Shown: in pieces, positions 27,936 to 35,077 of the stretch | How positions within the stretch are numbered: position 1 is the stretch's first letter | Layout of the letters: each line of letters opens with the position of its first letter | NCBI GenBank assembly: GCA_023269735.1 | Contig: JAGDWA010000110.1 | Span: 1-36,771, forward strand | DNA from: Thermofilum sp. | GTDB taxonomy: Archaea > Thermoproteota > Thermoprotei > Thermofilales > Thermofilaceae | Length of the DNA stretch: 36,771 bases | Reading direction: 5' to 3' | Made by a program: the position numbers and the translations under genes | Notes under the pieces: generated by a model | Told to the model about the DNA's origin: nothing | What the model saw: the letters and a program-made list of their open reading frames with translations, nothing else | Database searches by the model: none

Positions 27936-29318
27936 CTAGAACCTCAGCACGCTTAAAAGCACGGTGAAGAAGGTCAGGATGAGGGCTAGGAGGCCCACCA
28001 CAACGGCGGCCGCGTACGCCACGCGGGCCACCATCGCGAGCTCCAGCAAGGCCAGGTGGAGGGCCTGCGTGCCGGCTGAGTAGAGGGGGTAGAGGTAGCT
28101 CGCTACCCTCAGCTCCTCGTAGCTAGCCCCCCTCGGCGTCGCTACCCTGTAGAGGGCCGCCAGAGCCGCCAAGCGGCCGAGGGCCGAGGCGTAGAAGGCC
28201 AGGACCCCCCCGGTGTTGTAGAGCCATGCCCCCACCGCCGCGCCGGCAGCTGACGCCAACGCCGGCAACAGGTTGTAAACGGCGATGTAAATGTGCCGCC
28301 GCTCATGGGTGTAGGCGACGGCGTAGTTGAAGGCCGCCAGGTTGAAGCCAGTCCAGAGGAACGTGGAGTAAACCTGCAGCGCGCTCTGCCCGGCCAGGCT
28401 GGGAAGGAGCGGGAATAGCGCCGGCACCAGCACTATACCTAGGCCTGAGAGGAGGAACGTGGCTCGGGGGCCGTACCGGTCGTAGAAGCTACCCCACGGG
28501 GGGCTGGCGAAGGTCCCGACGACGCCGCCGATCAGGTTGAGCGTAGTGAACCAGGATTCGTTAGCCCCGAACGCCGCGTAGAGGTGGTAGTTCCACACGG
28601 CGGCCGCCACGTTCACCGAGAATGCCCACGCGGCCATCGCCGCGGAGTCCCTCAACGCCTCCCTGCTCCTGAGCAGCGAGAGCAGGCCCCCGACGGCCCC
28701 CCCGCTTTTGGGCTTCACGGGGTCGCCGTACATGTAGAGGAGCGGCACTGCCGCCAGCAGAAAGGCTGTGCCCACCCCGATCGCGACTGCGTAGCCGCTA
28801 GGGTAGCCCATCGAGTCATAGATCAGCTTCGCTACGAGGAGCCCAGCTATGTTCACGAAGCCGAGTATCGTGTTGCGCAGCGCGAACAGCCTGCCCATGC
28901 GCGCTGGCTCCACCAGGTCGGCTATCAGGTCGGTCCACGCGAGGCCTGCGAAGAGCCCTAGCGCGTTGGAGGCCACGAGGGCCGCCACCACTGCCCCCAG
29001 CCAGCCCCCCTTCAGCACGGCGAGCAGGACGGCCAGCCACAGCAGGCGGCTGGCGCCAGCGAAGGTCACCATCAGCTGCAGCCTCCTCTCGCGGTATCTG
29101 TCGAGGAGGGCTGCTGCTAGCAGCTGCAGTGGCGGGGTCGACACCTGAGTCACGGCCGTGTAAAGGGCGATCACGCTCGCGTTGGCTCCCATCCTCAGCA
29201 GCAGCGGGATGGACATCGGCCCCACGAGCGCTACACCGAAGACGGTGAGGGCACCCTCGACGATGCTGACCTTAAAGCCCCGCGAGGCCCTCCCGAGCTC
29301 GTTGAGCTGCAGACGCAT
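27936..29318 (-). CDS. Major facilitator superfamily transporter
   Basis: This is a 460-residue membrane protein with about 12 TM segments. An MFS-like loop between TM2 and TM3 reads LLDRYRERRLQLMV, and a second similar loop in the C-terminal half reads FYDRYGPRATFLLSG, the internal duplication typical of MFS. WTDLIADLVEPARMGRLFALRN resembles MFS proteins with uncharacterised substrates. The protein is predicted in the cytoplasmic membrane; the substrate is unknown. It lies 25 bp downstream of the hydrogenase small-subunit gene, so it could be read through from the hydrogenase operon, although a weak TATA-like TACTATTC at about 29330-29337 lies between them. Confidence 0.85.
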   Translation of the reverse strand: MRLQLNELGRASRGFKVSIVEGALTVFGVALVGPMSIPLLLRMGANASVIALYTAVTQVSTPPLQLLAAALLDRYRERRLQLMVTFAGASRLLWLAVLLAVLKGGWLGAVVAALVASNALGLFAGLAWTDLIADLVEPARMGRLFALRNTILGFVNIAGLLVAKLIYDSMGYPSGYAVAIGVGTAFLLAAVPLLYMYGDPVKPKSGGAVGGLLSLLRSREALRDSAAMAAWAFSVNVAAAVWNYHLYAAFGANESWFTTLNLIGGVVGTFASPPWGSFYDRYGPRATFLLSGLGIVLVPALFPLLPSLAGQSALQVYSTFLWTGFNLAAFNYAVAYTHERRHIYIAVYNLLPALASAAGAAVGAWLYNTGGVLAFYASALGRLAALAALYRVATPRGASYEELRVASYLYPLYSAGTQALHLALLELAMVARVAYAAAVVVGLLALILTFFTVLLSVLRF

Positions 29319-29343: not shown

Positions 29344-30633
29344 CTACTGGGTGAGGAGCCGGTACGGCGCCCCTGACCCCCTCCTGCAGCCGCCCGGGCA
29401 CAGCTGCAGCACTACCGGCTTCCCGCTGCTCTGCAGCCCTCCCGACTTGAGCTTCTCTACCGCAGACCTGCAGGCCTCGGGCCCCACCAGCACCTCCACG
29501 TCACCCACGGCCTCATGCGCGTAAGCCTGGTTGGGCAGGTCGCTCAGCGTGATCCTAGCCCCCTTAGCCACCTCCACGAGCTCGTGGGCCGTGAGCACCA
29601 GCGGGTGGTCCTCCTTCCTGGCCGCGCAGGCAGTCACCAGCACAGTGTCCGAGTCGCCCACGATCCTGACGTGGCCCTTGACGGCCCCGGGCACCAGCTT
29701 CCTCACCCACCTCTCCTCAGCTGAGCTGAACGGCACCAGGGGGCCCTCGAATTCGTGAGCCAGCTTCAGCGGGTCGACGATGGCCACGTCGCTGAAGCCG
29801 AGCTCCCTGAGCAGCGAGATCACTTGGCCCGGCGCCACCCCTAGGGCTTCGGCGGCAACCTCGACGGCGTAGCTCTCGACGATTGCCGTGCCGCCCTCCC
29901 TCGCCACCTTGAGGGCGGGCTCCACATCGCCTCTGTAGGTTATCGCGGCGACCGGGCAGTAGGCCGCGCAGAGGCCGCACCTCACGCACCCAGCCTCCAG
30001 GAACGGCAGTTGCGCCGGCGTGGTGACGACCACGCGGAAACCCCTGTACGCCGGCGTCAGCACGTGGGCGCCTATGTACGCACAAATCTCCGAGCACCTC
30101 CCGCATACGATGCACTTGCCGGCGTCAAGCCTGAGGAAGTCGTCCTTAATCGTCAGGTCCCCCACCACCCGCTCGTACTCGAAGCGCCTCTCGTACCGCG
30201 CTGCCGCCAGGCCCAGCGAAAGCAGCCTGAGGACGGCGACCAGCTCGTCGACGCTCGCTGGGCACCCCCTCACGTGGGCGTCGACCTTAACGACCTTGTG
30301 CAAGGGGTGAGCATCCGTGTAGCCCTTCGCCTCGTACTCCTCCAGCCTCAGCCCGAGCCTGTACCCGAGGGTCGTTATCCCCCCTAGCACGGCGCAGCTA
30401 CCCAGAGCGATAAGGTGCTTCGCCCTCCCCCTTATCTCCCTGAGCTTCCCGACGTCGGGCTGCGTGACGGCCCCCTCGACCACGGCGACGTCGAACTCGC
30501 CGTCCGAGGACAGGCCCAGCAGCGGCTCCCTAACGATCTCGATCCCCTCCAGCGCTAGGACCTTGTCGATCTCGTTGACGATCCTGTACCTACACCCCTC
30601 GCACGCGCCGAAGGAGAAGAACGCCACCTTCAC
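29344..30633 (-). CDS. [NiFe]-hydrogenase small subunit (N-terminal half) fused to ferredoxin and degenerate [FeFe]-hydrogenase H-domain
   Basis: Numbering is from the GTG at 30642. Residues 1-150 are the flavodoxin-like part of a group 3 [NiFe] small subunit, with proximal-cluster Cys C14, C17, C83 and C127 (FSFGACEGC, GSCAVLGG, VRGCP). The usual C-terminal half of such subunits is missing. It is replaced by two [4Fe-4S] sets (C177/C180/C183/C187; C219/C222/C225/C229) and then about 190 residues that align with the [FeFe]-hydrogenase H-domain. There, the TSCCPxW motif reads FSSAEERWV (both Cys lost), PCxxK reads ACAARK (C339 kept), and the last motif CPGGC is intact (C415, C419). The H-domain is about 60 residues short between C339 and C415. 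It should pair with the large subunit and pass electrons; an intact H-cluster is unlikely. The GTG at 30633 is favoured by the shared GGTGGTGG signal. Confidence 0.85.
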   Translation of the reverse strand: MKVAFFSFGACEGCRYRIVNEIDKVLALEGIEIVREPLLGLSSDGEFDVAVVEGAVTQPDVGKLREIRGRAKHLIALGSCAVLGGITTLGYRLGLRLEEYEAKGYTDAHPLHKVVKVDAHVRGCPASVDELVAVLRLLSLGLAAARYERRFEYERVVGDLTIKDDFLRLDAGKCIVCGRCSEICAYIGAHVLTPAYRGFRVVVTTPAQLPFLEAGCVRCGLCAAYCPVAAITYRGDVEPALKVAREGGTAIVESYAVEVAAEALGVAPGQVISLLRELGFSDVAIVDPLKLAHEFEGPLVPFSSAEERWVRKLVPGAVKGHVRIVGDSDTVLVTACAARKEDHPLVLTAHELVEVAKGARITLSDLPNQAYAHEAVGDVEVLVGPEACRSAVEKLKSGGLQSSGKPVVLQLCPGGCRRGSGAPYRLLTQ

Positions 30634-30645
30634 GCCCACCACCTA
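30634..30645 (-). promoter_or_regulatory. GGTGGTGG start signal of the small-subunit gene
   Basis: GGTGGTGG (30636-30643, minus strand) lies two bases before the GTG at 30633. The same box with the same spacing precedes the large-subunit and HoxU-like starts. It overlaps the stop codon of the large-subunit gene. Confidence 0.5.
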
Positions 30646-31932
30646 GTGCACTGAGCAGGGGAGGCAGGGGTCATAGGCCCTAACGAGCGCCGCCACGAGG
30701 CCCTTGAGCTGCCACTCGTCGTGTAAGCCCCTCTCGCGCGCCCACCTGATCAGCGCCTCCCCCGAGACCTCGATGTGCCTGGCGTTCATCACCGTCGGCG
30801 TGATTATGTTAGCGTAGTCCAGCCTGCCGTTCACGACCCTGTAGTGGTGTATGAGCACCCCCCGAGGCGCGGTCGCCAGCCCGACGCCTTCGCCGCTCGC
30901 CGCAGGGACATCCTTCAGCGCCCTGAACTCCGCAGCCTTGCGGATTGAGGGCGCCAGCTCCCTGAGCATTCCAGACAGCACTTCTGACAGCCACGCGGTC
31001 TCGATGTACTGCGCGGCGACGTTATCGAAGGGGTTCGCGGGGTCCATCCTCAGGGCGCCCTCCAGCTCCCTAACCTCGGGGGGCAGCATCCTGGCGTAGG
31101 CCTGGAGCCTGGCCCGCGATCCGACGTAGAAGGGGGAGCCCTTGTAGAGGGTGTAGTGGGCGTTCGAGTAGGGCGACTTGAGCTCCTCGATGGCCTCCTT
31201 ATAGCTCCCGGCCTCGACGACGGTCCCGTCGGAGAAGCGGAGCCTTTCGGAGAAGAACGGGTACTCGTCCCCCGCGGCGTCCAGCACGCAGTAGGTGGGG
31301 GCGGGGTCTCTGAAGCCCTCAGCCGGGGACCTCCACAGCTCACTCAGCTCGGCGGCCAGGTCGCGCATCCTCTGCCCGACCCCCTCGAGCTCCTTGGCTG
31401 CTGCTTCCAGCTCGCTCCCGCTTATCGGCTTGCCGTGCTCTGCCACGCCCAGGCTGGGCATGTGGATGAACCTCCCGCAGACTCTATTGCTGACGCCTAG
31501 GACGCTCTTGTTGATGGAGATCATCTCGCTGAAGATCTTCGGATACCTCTTGGAGAACTCCACGACGTTGCTGAGCCCTGTGAAGTCGGGGATCGCCATC
31601 AGCACGTGAACAAAGTTGTTCTGGAGGATCTCGATGCCCTTGGCAACCTCCCTGAGCAGGCGGACCTCGGGCTCCGGCTCCAGGCCAAGGGCCCTCTCTA
31701 TGGCCTCGATCGAGCAGGTGAGGTGAGCCACGCTACACACGCCGCAGATCCTCGACATGACCCACGGCACCTGGGTGACGGGGCGCCCCTTGAGGGAGCG
31801 CTCAAAGAACCTCGGCTCCTGCACCGCGCCGAACTCGACTCGAACTCTCGCCTCCTCGCCTCTCACGTATACGTTCACTTTCCCGGCGACCGCCGGCACC
31901 TCCTCGAGGGAGAGCACCAGCCTCTCAGCCAC
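30643..31932 (-). CDS. [NiFe]-hydrogenase large (catalytic) subunit, group 3-like
   Basis: This catalytic subunit of about 429 residues (432 from the GTG at 31941) holds the NiFe site. The L1 motif is RICGVCSVAH and the C-terminal L2 motif is DPCLPCSVH, which give the four Ni/Fe-binding Cys. Intermediate features ITPTVMNARHIE and LIHHYRVVNG are those of group 3 soluble hydrogenases (Mvh/Hox/sulfhydrogenase). The protein ends exactly at the His of L2, so there is no C-terminal peptide for a maturation protease to cleave. The start is GTG 31932 by the shared GGTGGTGG box, or GTG 31941. It overlaps the HoxU-like gene by 8 or 17 bp. No maturation (hyp) genes are in the window. Confidence 0.93.
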   Translation of the reverse strand: MAERLVLSLEEVPAVAGKVNVYVRGEEARVRVEFGAVQEPRFFERSLKGRPVTQVPWVMSRICGVCSVAHLTCSIEAIERALGLEPEPEVRLLREVAKGIEILQNNFVHVLMAIPDFTGLSNVVEFSKRYPKIFSEMISINKSVLGVSNRVCGRFIHMPSLGVAEHGKPISGSELEAAAKELEGVGQRMRDLAAELSELWRSPAEGFRDPAPTYCVLDAAGDEYPFFSERLRFSDGTVVEAGSYKEAIEELKSPYSNAHYTLYKGSPFYVGSRARLQAYARMLPPEVRELEGALRMDPANPFDNVAAQYIETAWLSEVLSGMLRELAPSIRKAAEFRALKDVPAASGEGVGLATAPRGVLIHHYRVVNGRLDYANIITPTVMNARHIEVSGEALIRWARERGLHDEWQLKGLVAALVRAYDPCLPCSVH

Positions 31933-32590
31933 GGCCACCACCCGATGCCCTGCCTGCGACGCTCTTAACGACGCCGAAGCTGTCTAGGGAGTTCCAGAAG
32001 ATCTCCGCCTTGGAGACCACGGACGTCACGTCGAAGCCCAGCTCCGAGTACCTCTTAAATGCTCTCTCGAGTACGTCTGCTCTCGTTATGGGCCCTCTGC
32101 AGCCCCAGCACTCGCCGCCCCCCGCGACGCACTCGGCTTCGCAGCCGGCCAAGGTTATCATCCCGAGGCAGAGGATGCCCCTTCTCAGCAGGCACTCGCT
32201 GGGCGGCAGCGGGCATTCGGAGCAGACGGGGATTCCTTCCACTCCGAGCTCCTTAGCCAGGCTGACGAGGGAGCACGCGCCCTTCCTCTCGCACTGCCAG
32301 CACTCGATCCTGTGGAACGCGAGCAGGAGCTCGAAGTTGACCCTTCTCATCTCCCACAGGTCAGGCGAGGTGGCCACGAACTCCTCGTCCCTGTAGACCC
32401 TGTAGTTGCAAGCGGGGAAGAGCCGCCCGGCAGGGGTTTTCACCAGGCACACCCTGCAGCTAGAGCCCTCATAGAGCCCCGGCACGACGCAGAGCCTCGG
32501 TATCCTGACCCCCGCCTTCTCGGCCGCCGCCAGGACTGTGGTGCCCGGCTCCACTTCGACTACCCTACCGTCGATCTTCACCTTAGGCAT
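31925..32590 (-). CDS. HoxU/NuoG-N-like iron-sulfur subunit fused to the C-terminal half of a hydrogenase small subunit
   Basis: Numbering is from the ATG at 32590. The protein starts as a NuoG/HoxU-type electron-transfer subunit: a plant-type [2Fe-2S] site (C34, C45, C48, C61; LCVVPGLYEGSSCRVC) and the His-Cys [4Fe-4S] site (H93, C97, C100, C106; HRIECWQCERKGAC). Instead of the two bacterial-type ferredoxin clusters of HoxU it then continues with CSECPLPPSECLLRRG, LCLGMITLAGCEAEC and GECWGCRGP (Cys 123, 126, 133, 141, 150, 154, 161, 164). That is the C-terminal medial/distal-cluster half of group 3 hydrogenase small subunits (MvhG, HoxY). The small-subunit protein encoded in the same operon lacks precisely this part. 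It should relay electrons between the diaphorase and the NiFe module. Confidence 0.82.
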   Translation of the reverse strand: MPKVKIDGRVVEVEPGTTVLAAAEKAGVRIPRLCVVPGLYEGSSCRVCLVKTPAGRLFPACNYRVYRDEEFVATSPDLWEMRRVNFELLLAFHRIECWQCERKGACSLVSLAKELGVEGIPVCSECPLPPSECLLRRGILCLGMITLAGCEAECVAGGGECWGCRGPITRADVLERAFKRYSELGFDVTSVVSKAEIFWNSLDSFGVVKSVAGRASGGGRG

Positions 32591-34574
32591 GCCCACCACC
32601 TAGCGAACCCCTGGGAACTTTCGTGATAACTTTGACGGGGCACACCGCGAAGCAGATGCCACAGCTGATGCACTTCTCCTTGTCGATCCTGTACTTGCCG
32701 CTCTCGACCCTTGAGATGGCGCTCACGGGGCAGTTCATCGCGCACTGCCCGCACGCTATGCAGCGCTCCTCGTCGATCCTGTAGGCTATCAGGGCCCTGC
32801 AGACCATGGCGGGGCAGACCTTGTCCCTGATGTGGGCCATGTACTCATCCACGAAGTGCCGCAGCGTCGAGAGCACTGGGTTAGGCGCTGTGCCTCCGAG
32901 CGCGCACAGGCTGAACGACCTAACGGTCTCGGCCATCTGCCTCAGGGTGTGTAGGTCCTCCTCCGTGCCCTCGCCCCTGGTTATCTTGTCGAGGATGTTC
33001 CACATGGTCCTCAGGCCGACCCTGCACGGCACGCACTTGCCGCAGGACTCAGCCGACGTGAAGGTCAGGAAGAACTTGGCGGCGTCCACCATGCAGGTGT
33101 CCTCGGTCATCACGACTATGCCCCCGCTGCCCATGATGGCGCCGGCACCCTGAAGGGTCTCGTAGTCGATCGGCAGGTCGAGCAGTGCGGCCGGTATGCA
33201 GCCGCCCGAGGGGCCACCGATCTGAACCGCCTTGATCTTGGAGCCGTCGGGGGGCCCGCCGGCGAGCTCCTCCACGAGGTAGCGCACGCTGACGCCTATC
33301 GGCACCTCGTAAGCCCCCACCCTCTTCACGTTCCCCGTGACGCAGAACATCTTGGTGCCCTTCGTCCTCTCGGTGCCCACGGCGGCGAACTTCTCCGCCC
33401 CCTCGGCCATGATCGTCGCCGCGTGGGCCAGCGTCTCGACGTTATTGACTATCGTCGGCTTGCCCCACAGCCCCTTCTCGGCTGGGTAGGGCGGCCTCTG
33501 GCGAGGCCAGGCCCGCTTGCCCTCGATAGCCGCTATCATGGCCGTCTCCTCGCCGCAGACGAAGGCGCCCGCGCTGAGGATCACCTCGATGTCGAAGTCG
33601 AAGCCCGACCCGAGGATGTTCCTGCCCAGCAGGCCGTACTTCCTCGCCTCCTCCACGGCCCTCCTCAGGCGCTTCGCCATCATCGGCTTCTCGGCCCTCA
33701 CGAAGATGAAGCCCTGGCTGGCACCCACCGCGTACCCCGCTATCGTCAGGCCCTCGACGATCCTGAAGGGGTCGGACTCCGCTAGCAGCCTGTTCATGAA
33801 AGCCCCGGGGTCACCCTCGTCGGCGTTCGCAATGACGTACTTCGGCGTCGCCGGCTGCTGCCGGGCCAGCTTCCACTTCAGGCCTGTGGGGAAGCCGGCG
33901 CCCCCCCGGCCTCGCAGGCCGCTCTTCTGTATCTCGTCGATCACCCTCTCGGGCCCCACCTTGAGGGCCTTGCTCAGGCCCCTGTACCCCCCGCTCGCGA
34001 CGTACTCCTCCAGCGATTCGGGGTTGACCACCCCGCAGTTCCTCGAGACCCACTTGTACTGCTTCCTCCAGAAGTCGAGCTCGCTTAGCAGCGGGACCTT
34101 CTCCTCGCCCAGCGCCCCGCCCGTGCGCTCCTTCAGGGCGAACGCCCCGCTCACGTCGCGCTTGATGAAGTAGCTCTCTATCAGCTTCGGCACGTCGGCG
34201 GGCCTGACCCTAGCGTAGATCGCCGTGGGCATCCCCTTCGCCGAGAACTCCACCCACGGGTCGATGAAGTCCATCCCATAGCAGCCCGAGATGGTCACGG
34301 TGGCCTCCACGCCCAGCTTCTCCACCGCCTCTAGGACGGCGTTGTAGACGGCCTCCGAGCCCATGGCGAGCGTGCAGCTGGCCATCGGCACCTTTATCTT
34401 GGCCCCCTTCTCGCCGTAGGCCAGCTCCTCGAGCCTCCTCCGTCTGAGCTCCCTGCACCGCTCGTCCTCGTGGCAGAGCGGCCCGTTCAGCCTGCACTCG
34501 ACGTAGTCCTTGCAGGGATTCTCGACGCTGTGCGTGCACCTGTCGCAGCACCTGTCGAGAAGCGTCCAGGTCAT
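32583..34574 (-). CDS. NuoF/HydB-like flavoprotein (diaphorase) subunit with extra Cys-rich N-terminus
   Basis: This 663-residue subunit should bind FMN and NAD(P)H. Its core has RGRGGAGFPTGLKW (221-234), NADEGDPGAF, AGAFVCGEETA and the [4Fe-4S] site SCGKCVPCR plus a distant Cys in FSLCALGG. Two C-terminal ferredoxin clusters follow (CIACGQCAMNCP, CISCGICFAVCP), as in the HydB subunit of bifurcating hydrogenases. Two features are unusual. An added N-terminal module has seven Cys in 40 residues (C9, C10, C13, C21, C27, C34, C40). In the following thioredoxin-like domain only C67 and C98 remain of the four [2Fe-2S] ligands; the partner positions are V62 and D102. ATG 34574 overlaps the NuoE-like stop by 4 bp. 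Confidence 0.92.
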   Translation of the reverse strand: MTWTLLDRCCDRCTHSVENPCKDYVECRLNGPLCHEDERCRELRRRRLEELAYGEKGAKIKVPMASCTLAMGSEAVYNAVLEAVEKLGVEATVTISGCYGMDFIDPWVEFSAKGMPTAIYARVRPADVPKLIESYFIKRDVSGAFALKERTGGALGEEKVPLLSELDFWRKQYKWVSRNCGVVNPESLEEYVASGGYRGLSKALKVGPERVIDEIQKSGLRGRGGAGFPTGLKWKLARQQPATPKYVIANADEGDPGAFMNRLLAESDPFRIVEGLTIAGYAVGASQGFIFVRAEKPMMAKRLRRAVEEARKYGLLGRNILGSGFDFDIEVILSAGAFVCGEETAMIAAIEGKRAWPRQRPPYPAEKGLWGKPTIVNNVETLAHAATIMAEGAEKFAAVGTERTKGTKMFCVTGNVKRVGAYEVPIGVSVRYLVEELAGGPPDGSKIKAVQIGGPSGGCIPAALLDLPIDYETLQGAGAIMGSGGIVVMTEDTCMVDAAKFFLTFTSAESCGKCVPCRVGLRTMWNILDKITRGEGTEEDLHTLRQMAETVRSFSLCALGGTAPNPVLSTLRHFVDEYMAHIRDKVCPAMVCRALIAYRIDEERCIACGQCAMNCPVSAISRVESGKYRIDKEKCISCGICFAVCPVKVITKVPRGSLGGGHA

Positions 34575-35077
34575 CCGCTGCCACCCCTCTCCAGCCGCCT
34601 GTAGCGCTCCACCGCGGCCCTGAGGCTGCGCGGGTTGGCCCTGCCGATGATCTCATTGGTGCCGTCGGGCTTCAGGATCATGACGACCGGCGCCAGGCCG
34701 CAGCAGCCGAAGCACCGTGCCTCCTCAACGGAGAAGAGCATGTCGGAGGTGGTCTTCTGGCCCGGCTTCAGGCCGAGCAGCGAGCGCAGGAACTCCGCGT
34801 TGAGGCGGTTGCCCGCGAGGTGGCAAGCAGTGCCCATGCAGAGCAGGATCCTGTACTTGCCCAGGGGCTCCAGGCTGTACTGGTGGTAGAACGTGGCGAC
34901 GCCGTAGGCTTGGGCGAGCGGCACCCCCACGTAGTCTGCAGCCATCTTGATGCCCTCCAGCGGCAGGTACCCGTAGTGCGCCTGCACCCTCCTCAGGGCC
35001 TCTATCAGGTTGTGGGGAGCCCGCTGCAGCCCCCTGAAGAGCTCGTCCGGGTTGGGAGGTGCGCCCTTCTCCTCCAT
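34571..35077 (-). CDS. NuoE/HydC-like [2Fe-2S] subunit
   Basis: This is a 168-residue thioredoxin-like [2Fe-2S] protein, the small partner of NuoF-type flavoproteins. An N-terminal helical part (LIEALRRVQAHYGYLP, YGVATFYHQYS) is followed by the cluster ligands C80 and C85 in LCMGTACHLAG and C122 and C126 in RCFGCCGLAP; an additional Cys, C125, sits between the last two. In bifurcating and NAD-linked hydrogenases this subunit accepts electrons near the FMN. It is the first gene of the five-gene hydrogenase operon and its ATG is about 27 bp after a TATA box at 35099-35109, so the operon mRNA is likely leaderless. Confidence 0.93.
   Translation of the reverse strand: MEEKGAPPNPDELFRGLQRAPHNLIEALRRVQAHYGYLPLEGIKMAADYVGVPLAQAYGVATFYHQYSLEPLGKYRILLCMGTACHLAGNRLNAEFLRSLLGLKPGQKTTSDMLFSVEEARCFGCCGLAPVVMILKPDGTNEIIGRANPRSLRAAVERYRRLERGGSG

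Follow-up and report, generated by a model that had tools for sequence, protein, structure and literature searches.

In archaea, complexes that fuse [FeFe]- and [NiFe]-hydrogenases have reportedly been described from ten orders (Greening et al. 2024, Cell 187:3357). Passages of PMC11406978, and of others, cite such hybrid hydrogenases as already published. The complex analysed here is very probably one of the Greening 2024 hybrids, and the fused [FeFe] and [NiFe] architecture given for them, with which we compared it by description only, is found here. Among characterised enzymes, NiFe-HydABCSL of Acetomicrobium mobile (NiFe-Bfu; 7t2r, PMC8880783) shares with it the BfuBC core, the BfuA clusters and the [NiFe] subunits S and L. 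Its wire runs FMN-B1-A1-A2-A3-S1-[NiFe], with A4 and A5 forming a side arm, and its HydA has no H-cluster: the extra cluster A5 takes that place on the arm, much as we propose below for our locus, and is described as a non-functional remnant (PMC8880783). However, A. mobile encodes A and S in two genes of their own, both intact, whereas here they are cut and cross-joined, and HydS of A. mobile has one cluster, against three predicted for S here. The bifurcating [FeFe]-hydrogenases HydABC (T. maritima 7p5h, T. kivui 8a6t, A. woodii 7q4v) have HydB, HydC and all HydA domains homologous to those of our locus, in order; unlike them, the present complex has no complete H-cluster ligand set and no 2Fe pocket, and its HydA is split over two chains. 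Finally, the group 3b sulfhydrogenase (Pyrococcus HydD/ShyD and HydA/ShyA) is close to L and to both small-subunit halves, but here the small subunit is split and the NAD(P)/flavin module is of a different type.

The locus lies in a window of 36,771 nucleotides from Thermofilum sp. (contig JAGDWA010000110.1). Its features, all on the minus strand, are as follows:

34571..35077, minus strand: BfuC/HydC (NuoE-type) [2Fe-2S] subunit C, from profile matches
32583..34574, minus strand: BfuB/HydB-type NAD(H)- and FMN-binding subunit B, with C-terminal 2x[4Fe-4S] and an N-terminal CCxxC prefix domain
31925..32599, minus strand: reciprocal fusion A_N::S_C, 224 aa, HydA N-half followed by the small-subunit C-half
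30643..31941, minus strand: [NiFe] large subunit L, both CxxC motifs intact (RICGVC, DPCLPCSVH)
29344..30642, minus strand: S_N::A_C fusion protein, ORF of 432 aa with a GTG start
30211..30633, minus strand: [NiFe] small-subunit N-half (residues 4-144; PF01058, E 3.2e-20; ShyD 2-153)
29926..30132, minus strand: two [4Fe-4S] ferredoxin clusters (residues 171-239), homologous to the HydA1 clusters beside the H-domain
29347..29925, minus strand: H-domain remnant (residues 240-432, the C-terminal 193 residues), from profile and fold matches
29716..29727, minus strand: L1 remnant S306-S307-A308-E309, at the start of helix 307-316
29626..29628, minus strand: L2 cysteine C339, invariant (36/36)
29386..29400, minus strand: L3 CPGGC with C415 and C419, invariant (36/36)

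The operon order C-B-[A_N::S_C]-L-[S_N::A_C] was found at most of the 19 loci checked, wherever the contig allows, save for L066 and L067, which have no L at that place. These two are not instances of hydrogenase loss, as an L-like gene is present on another contig in both genomes. Full-length homologues of S_N::A_C come from Thermofilaceae and other Thermoproteota, including MAGs named Sulfolobales and Desulfurococcales. Since many independent genomes of deeply diverged Thermoproteota share the five-gene arrangement and the invariant residues, we rejected both chance and an assembly artefact as explanations of S_N::A_C. The fourth codon of this gene is also GTG, an equally good start that agrees with the MKVAFF of relatives.

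The partner genes carry the features of a [NiFe] group 3 enzyme on a bifurcating core: L has both CxxC pairs, and the small-subunit N-half has four near-invariant cysteines (C14, C17, C83 and C127) predicted to bind the proximal [4Fe-4S] cluster. In the window, the His of DPCLPCSVH is the last residue of L, which lacks the normally cleaved C-terminal extension; the same holds for other members of the Thermofilales clade, and in other lineages L continues for about 3-16 residues more. A hydrogenase maturation protease (TIGR00072) was not found in the window's genome. Subunit B can be aligned over its whole length with HydB of A. mobile (E 1.7e-203) and likewise with NfnB, so that the core looks like a Bfu bifurcating enzyme. 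The domains that define BfuABC (FMN, SLBB, NADH_4Fe-4S and C-terminal ferredoxin in BfuB, plus BfuC; PMC9304861) are all present. By eye, the cysteines of B1-B4 and C1 appear to be kept; in the N-terminal domain of the window's B, one B5 cysteine is replaced (GCYGMD, compared with GCHGMC in A. mobile HydB), a substitution that makes full bifurcation competence of this complex less certain.

The [FeFe] HydA and the [NiFe] small subunit appear, on the evidence of their sequences, to have swapped halves reciprocally. In S_N::A_C, a part corresponding to ShyD 2-153 is followed by HydA from position 136 on: Oxidored_q6 (PF01058) matches residues 14-139 in Pfam, an NCBIfam FrhG/ShyD match covers the N-half, and the [FeFe] A6 hydrogenase family NF040763 matches residues 166-286 (E 2e-20), where the dicluster cysteines (177/180/183/187/219/222/225/229) are near-invariant among relatives. 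In A_N::S_C, residues 6-124 correspond to FeFe A6 HydA 2-121 (E 1.7e-28) and residues 121-201 to ShyD 156-237. The N-part is predicted to hold the [2Fe-2S] and the His-ligated [4Fe-4S] of HydA, and the sulfhydrogenase-type C-part two further [4Fe-4S]; 15 Cys and 1 His, putative ligands of one [2Fe-2S] and three [4Fe-4S], are invariant (20/20). PDB matches of this protein are 7q4v and 9nez. Comparison with unexchanged archaeal A and S proteins gives the same pattern of halves. This operon-wide picture goes beyond the sequence-only reading of the window, in which the reciprocal fusion, carried by the ORF upstream of L, went unmentioned.

Unexchanged forms survive in relatives. When 398 Thermoproteota genomes were scanned with PF02906, HydA proteins came to light that are complete and have SAECP or SPACP at L1 (L099-L101); their neighbourhoods read C-B-A-S-L in L103 and A-S-L in L104 and L105. 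In the tree of L, exchanged operons form one clade (support 93/89), which adjoins the unexchanged operons after a long-branch outlier is set aside and within which L068, the locus of L053, branches first; L053 is the relative that keeps Cys-Cys at L1. The tree of A_C likewise gives one exchanged clade (support 98/95). We thus regard a single exchange as moderately supported by the trees, support in the L tree being moderate and few unexchanged relatives being known. From an ancestral C-B-A-S-L operon, the halves of A and S would have been exchanged at the joint between cluster domains, which would have left all cluster-binding domains in place and altered only their covalent joining. The present gene order could have arisen in one event if the A_C-S_N segment had been excised as a circle, opened at the A/S boundary and reinserted behind L; both direction and mechanism are put forward here as suggestions. 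Both fusions are found together, and their order of origin is therefore unreadable from present data, which leaves room for an independent origin of each fusion, the complementary halves having been lost afterwards. Yet the joints agree within about 25 residues in both genes, in none of the 19 loci checked does the exchanged operon still contain an intact A or a second copy of a half, and relatives do have the C-B-A-S-L arrangement, so we consider this alternative unlikely.

The C-terminal part of S_N::A_C is a shrunken [FeFe]-hydrogenase H-domain that stands behind a [NiFe] small-subunit half, as had been proposed from the window's letters; the two ferredoxin clusters that were placed ahead of it are also borne out by the homology of the dicluster to HydA1. 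From the window protein alone, the case for an H-domain would be weak, and it is the relatives that settle the question. Against Fe_hyd_lg_C (PF02906), the window protein reaches 18.7 bits (E 0.0014), below the Pfam cut-off of 22.1, and a search of the window's own genome gave no PF02906 match at E<=0.001, which shows how strongly degenerate this copy is. Several relatives pass the cut-off, namely L053 (57 bits, E 2.5e-15), L045 (34 bits, E 3e-8) and L049 (24 bits, E 3e-5). With phmmer against the PDB, the window protein matches T. kivui HydA1 over two colinear stretches (162-285 and 390-427), and a profile of the C-terminal domain only retrieves [FeFe]-hydrogenases (best E 1.2e-18), the sole other match being at E 0.37. 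The A2 profile matches 7t2r_A, the HydA of A. mobile, over the ferredoxin part (122-211) only and not over the C-terminal domain. The predicted fold agrees as well: AlphaFold2 models were obtained for the full protein (pLDDT 82.9) and for the C-domain only (pLDDT 94.6, pTM 0.90), and all 27 PDB chains that Foldseek matched to the latter at E<=0.001 are [FeFe]-hydrogenases (27/27), the next match being at 0.07. The best structural match of the whole model is 8a6t_A HydA (E 4e-13). Of the two outcomes that had been named as refuting the H-domain, a lack of any significant profile match and a predicted fold of another kind, neither came about.

The ligand residues were followed in the 36 proteins that carry the domain. 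C339 in L2 and C415 and C419 in L3 are invariant, so the sequence-only reading was right that three of the four [4Fe-4S] ligands remain. It had also put FSSAEERWV, in an alignment almost without gaps, at the place of FTSCCPxWV, with A308 and E309 at the cysteine pair, which would make E309 the replacement of the ligand; this register is three residues off. Profile A2 aligns p-a-s-e-a-e with S-C-C-P-A-W of T. maritima HydA (7p5h), and bridging relatives (SAECPAV..FFP in L103, SPACPAA..FFP in L104, PCCYSAK..YYP in L053) lead to the same placement, the alignment with unfused archaeal HydA having no gaps between L1 and the subsequent YYP/FFP. The positions of the Cys-Cys pair are thus taken by F305 and S306, and that of the Trp in TSCCPxW by E309; on this ground we rejected E309 as a replacement ligand in the register first proposed. 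In L1, it is the cysteine before Pro that should coordinate the cubane (PMC12138974). At this position Ser is found in 35/36 proteins and Cys in L053, and the set of four ligand cysteines (L1, L2 and two in L3) is incomplete accordingly; the proton-transfer Cys of TSCCP is F305 in the window and variable in the family, with Cys in only two rows. Residue 309 is Glu in 35/36 and Ala in L053. In A. woodii HydA1 (7q4v chain A), a characterised bifurcating hydrogenase, L1 reads TSCSPGW, with Ser directly before Pro.

Large parts of the H-domain are missing. The spacing between L2 and L3 is 144 in CpI and 76 in the window, so that about 68 residues are lost, close to the 60 or so estimated before; it ranges from 55-84 in the family and is 160 in the canonical archaeal protein L106. 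A further loss of about 20 residues between L1 and L2, absent from the sequence-only reading, is apparent from a spacing of 33 in the window and 32-36 in the family, compared with 55 in L106. The GGVMEAALRT segment is gone, and with it the region over the 2Fe site. The canonical protein (L106 6910-8724) has TSCCPAW, MPCTSKK and MACPGGC; HydG was not found in this archaeal genome, which is 96% complete.

Could the domain nevertheless build a complete H-cluster and serve as a second H2 site? The L2 and L3 cysteines are kept, and L053 also has Cys-Cys in L1. However, the ligand cysteine is gone in 35/36 proteins and the proton-relay cysteine almost everywhere, and the domain is shorter by about 20 residues from L1 to L2 and by about 70 from L2 to L3, the GGVMEAALRT region being among the latter. 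With T. maritima as a positive control, HydG was found in 0/18 carrier genomes and HydF above cut-off in 0/18, most of these genomes being incomplete MAGs; HydG was likewise found in 0/4 comparison genomes, those of the unexchanged relatives among them. The absence of HydG and of above-cut-off HydF from the genomes searched, together with deletion of the region over the 2Fe site, make a catalytic H-cluster in S_N::A_C very unlikely, and a functional one was rejected on ligand loss, the L2-L3 deletion and the HydG and HydF results; we give a second H2 site practically no credence.

The product of the operon is probably a soluble [NiFe]-hydrogenase that bifurcates electrons between NAD(H) and ferredoxin and that has chimaeric wire proteins, derived by the exchange of A and S halves, and a non-catalytic H-domain remnant. 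Cluster content, electron path and bifurcation are inferred by homology. The [NiFe] site in L would be the only place where H2 is handled, and S_N::A_C and A_N::S_C would connect L to the flavin subunit. The wire would lead from [NiFe] to the S proximal cluster (in S_N::A_C), the S medial and S distal clusters and the His-ligated cluster (in A_N::S_C), the dicluster of S_N::A_C, the [2Fe-2S] of A_N::S_C, B1 and FMN, thereby weaving between both chimaeras, with the H-domain remnant at the end of a side arm. The three-Cys site of the remnant would probably hold either a [3Fe-4S] or a [4Fe-4S] whose fourth ligand is not Cys but S306 or solvent, and the domain would both buttress the structure and carry a cluster on a side branch, comparable to A5 in the HydA of A. 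mobile.

Two other roles of the remnant deserve attention. In the first, the domain would hold no cluster: an S306-x-x-E309 capping box would have replaced the ligand, the cysteines would be kept for packing or through inertia, and the domain would be a pure scaffold holding both chimaeras and B together. The S_N::A_C model, in which the helix begins at 307 with Ser at the N-cap and Glu at N3, suggests the form of such a capping box, and residues 306 and 309 covary (S+E in 35/36, C+A in L053). But three cysteines that stay invariant in 36/36 proteins down to about 28% identity exceed packing needs, and we hold this role to be rather doubtful. In the second, the remnant would be a live redox port, with a [4Fe-4S] whose fourth ligand is Ser306 (or Glu309), a shifted potential and electron exchange with a partner outside the Bfu core. 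A conserved Ser exactly at the ligand position, and the Ser before Pro in the L1 of A. woodii HydA1, speak for it; against it, A. woodii HydA1 still has a Cys beside that Ser, which the S_N::A_C family has not, A5 of A. mobile is a dead end (PMC8880783), and a partner gene was not identified. We judge such a port improbable. The same low probability attaches to the joint proposition that two unrelated hydrogenase genes swapped halves reciprocally and only once, that the wire was kept while being re-threaded over two chains, and that the relict H-domain is a Ser306 oxygen-ligated Fe-S site with a redox role of its own.

On the preferred reading, that of a bifurcating [NiFe]-hydrogenase with a non-catalytic remnant, one hydrogenase appears to do the chemistry in these heat-loving archaea while the other, of an unrelated type, survives, stripped down, as wiring and scaffold. 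The relatives form a readable series from the canonical H-domain, through unfused archaeal HydA with the ligand Cys and the fused Cys-Cys form, to the three-Cys remnant, the later stages standing beside a [NiFe] enzyme, and this makes the displacement of one hydrogenase by another within a shared electron-transfer chassis testable. It is unusual for two subunits of one complex to have swapped halves reciprocally and for the unexchanged form to survive in relatives, and such an exchange predicts that both joints are neighbours once the complex is assembled.

Two minor observations concern gene integrity and surroundings. At L097, a 243-aa ORF (1483-2211) has the C-terminal dicluster and H-remnant part without the small-subunit half, and may be a gene that has been split or disrupted. 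In the window, the operon is directly followed by an MFS transporter gene (27936-29318, minus strand), which is likewise found downstream in four relatives checked from the Thermofilaceae clade (L057, L031, L032 and L058).
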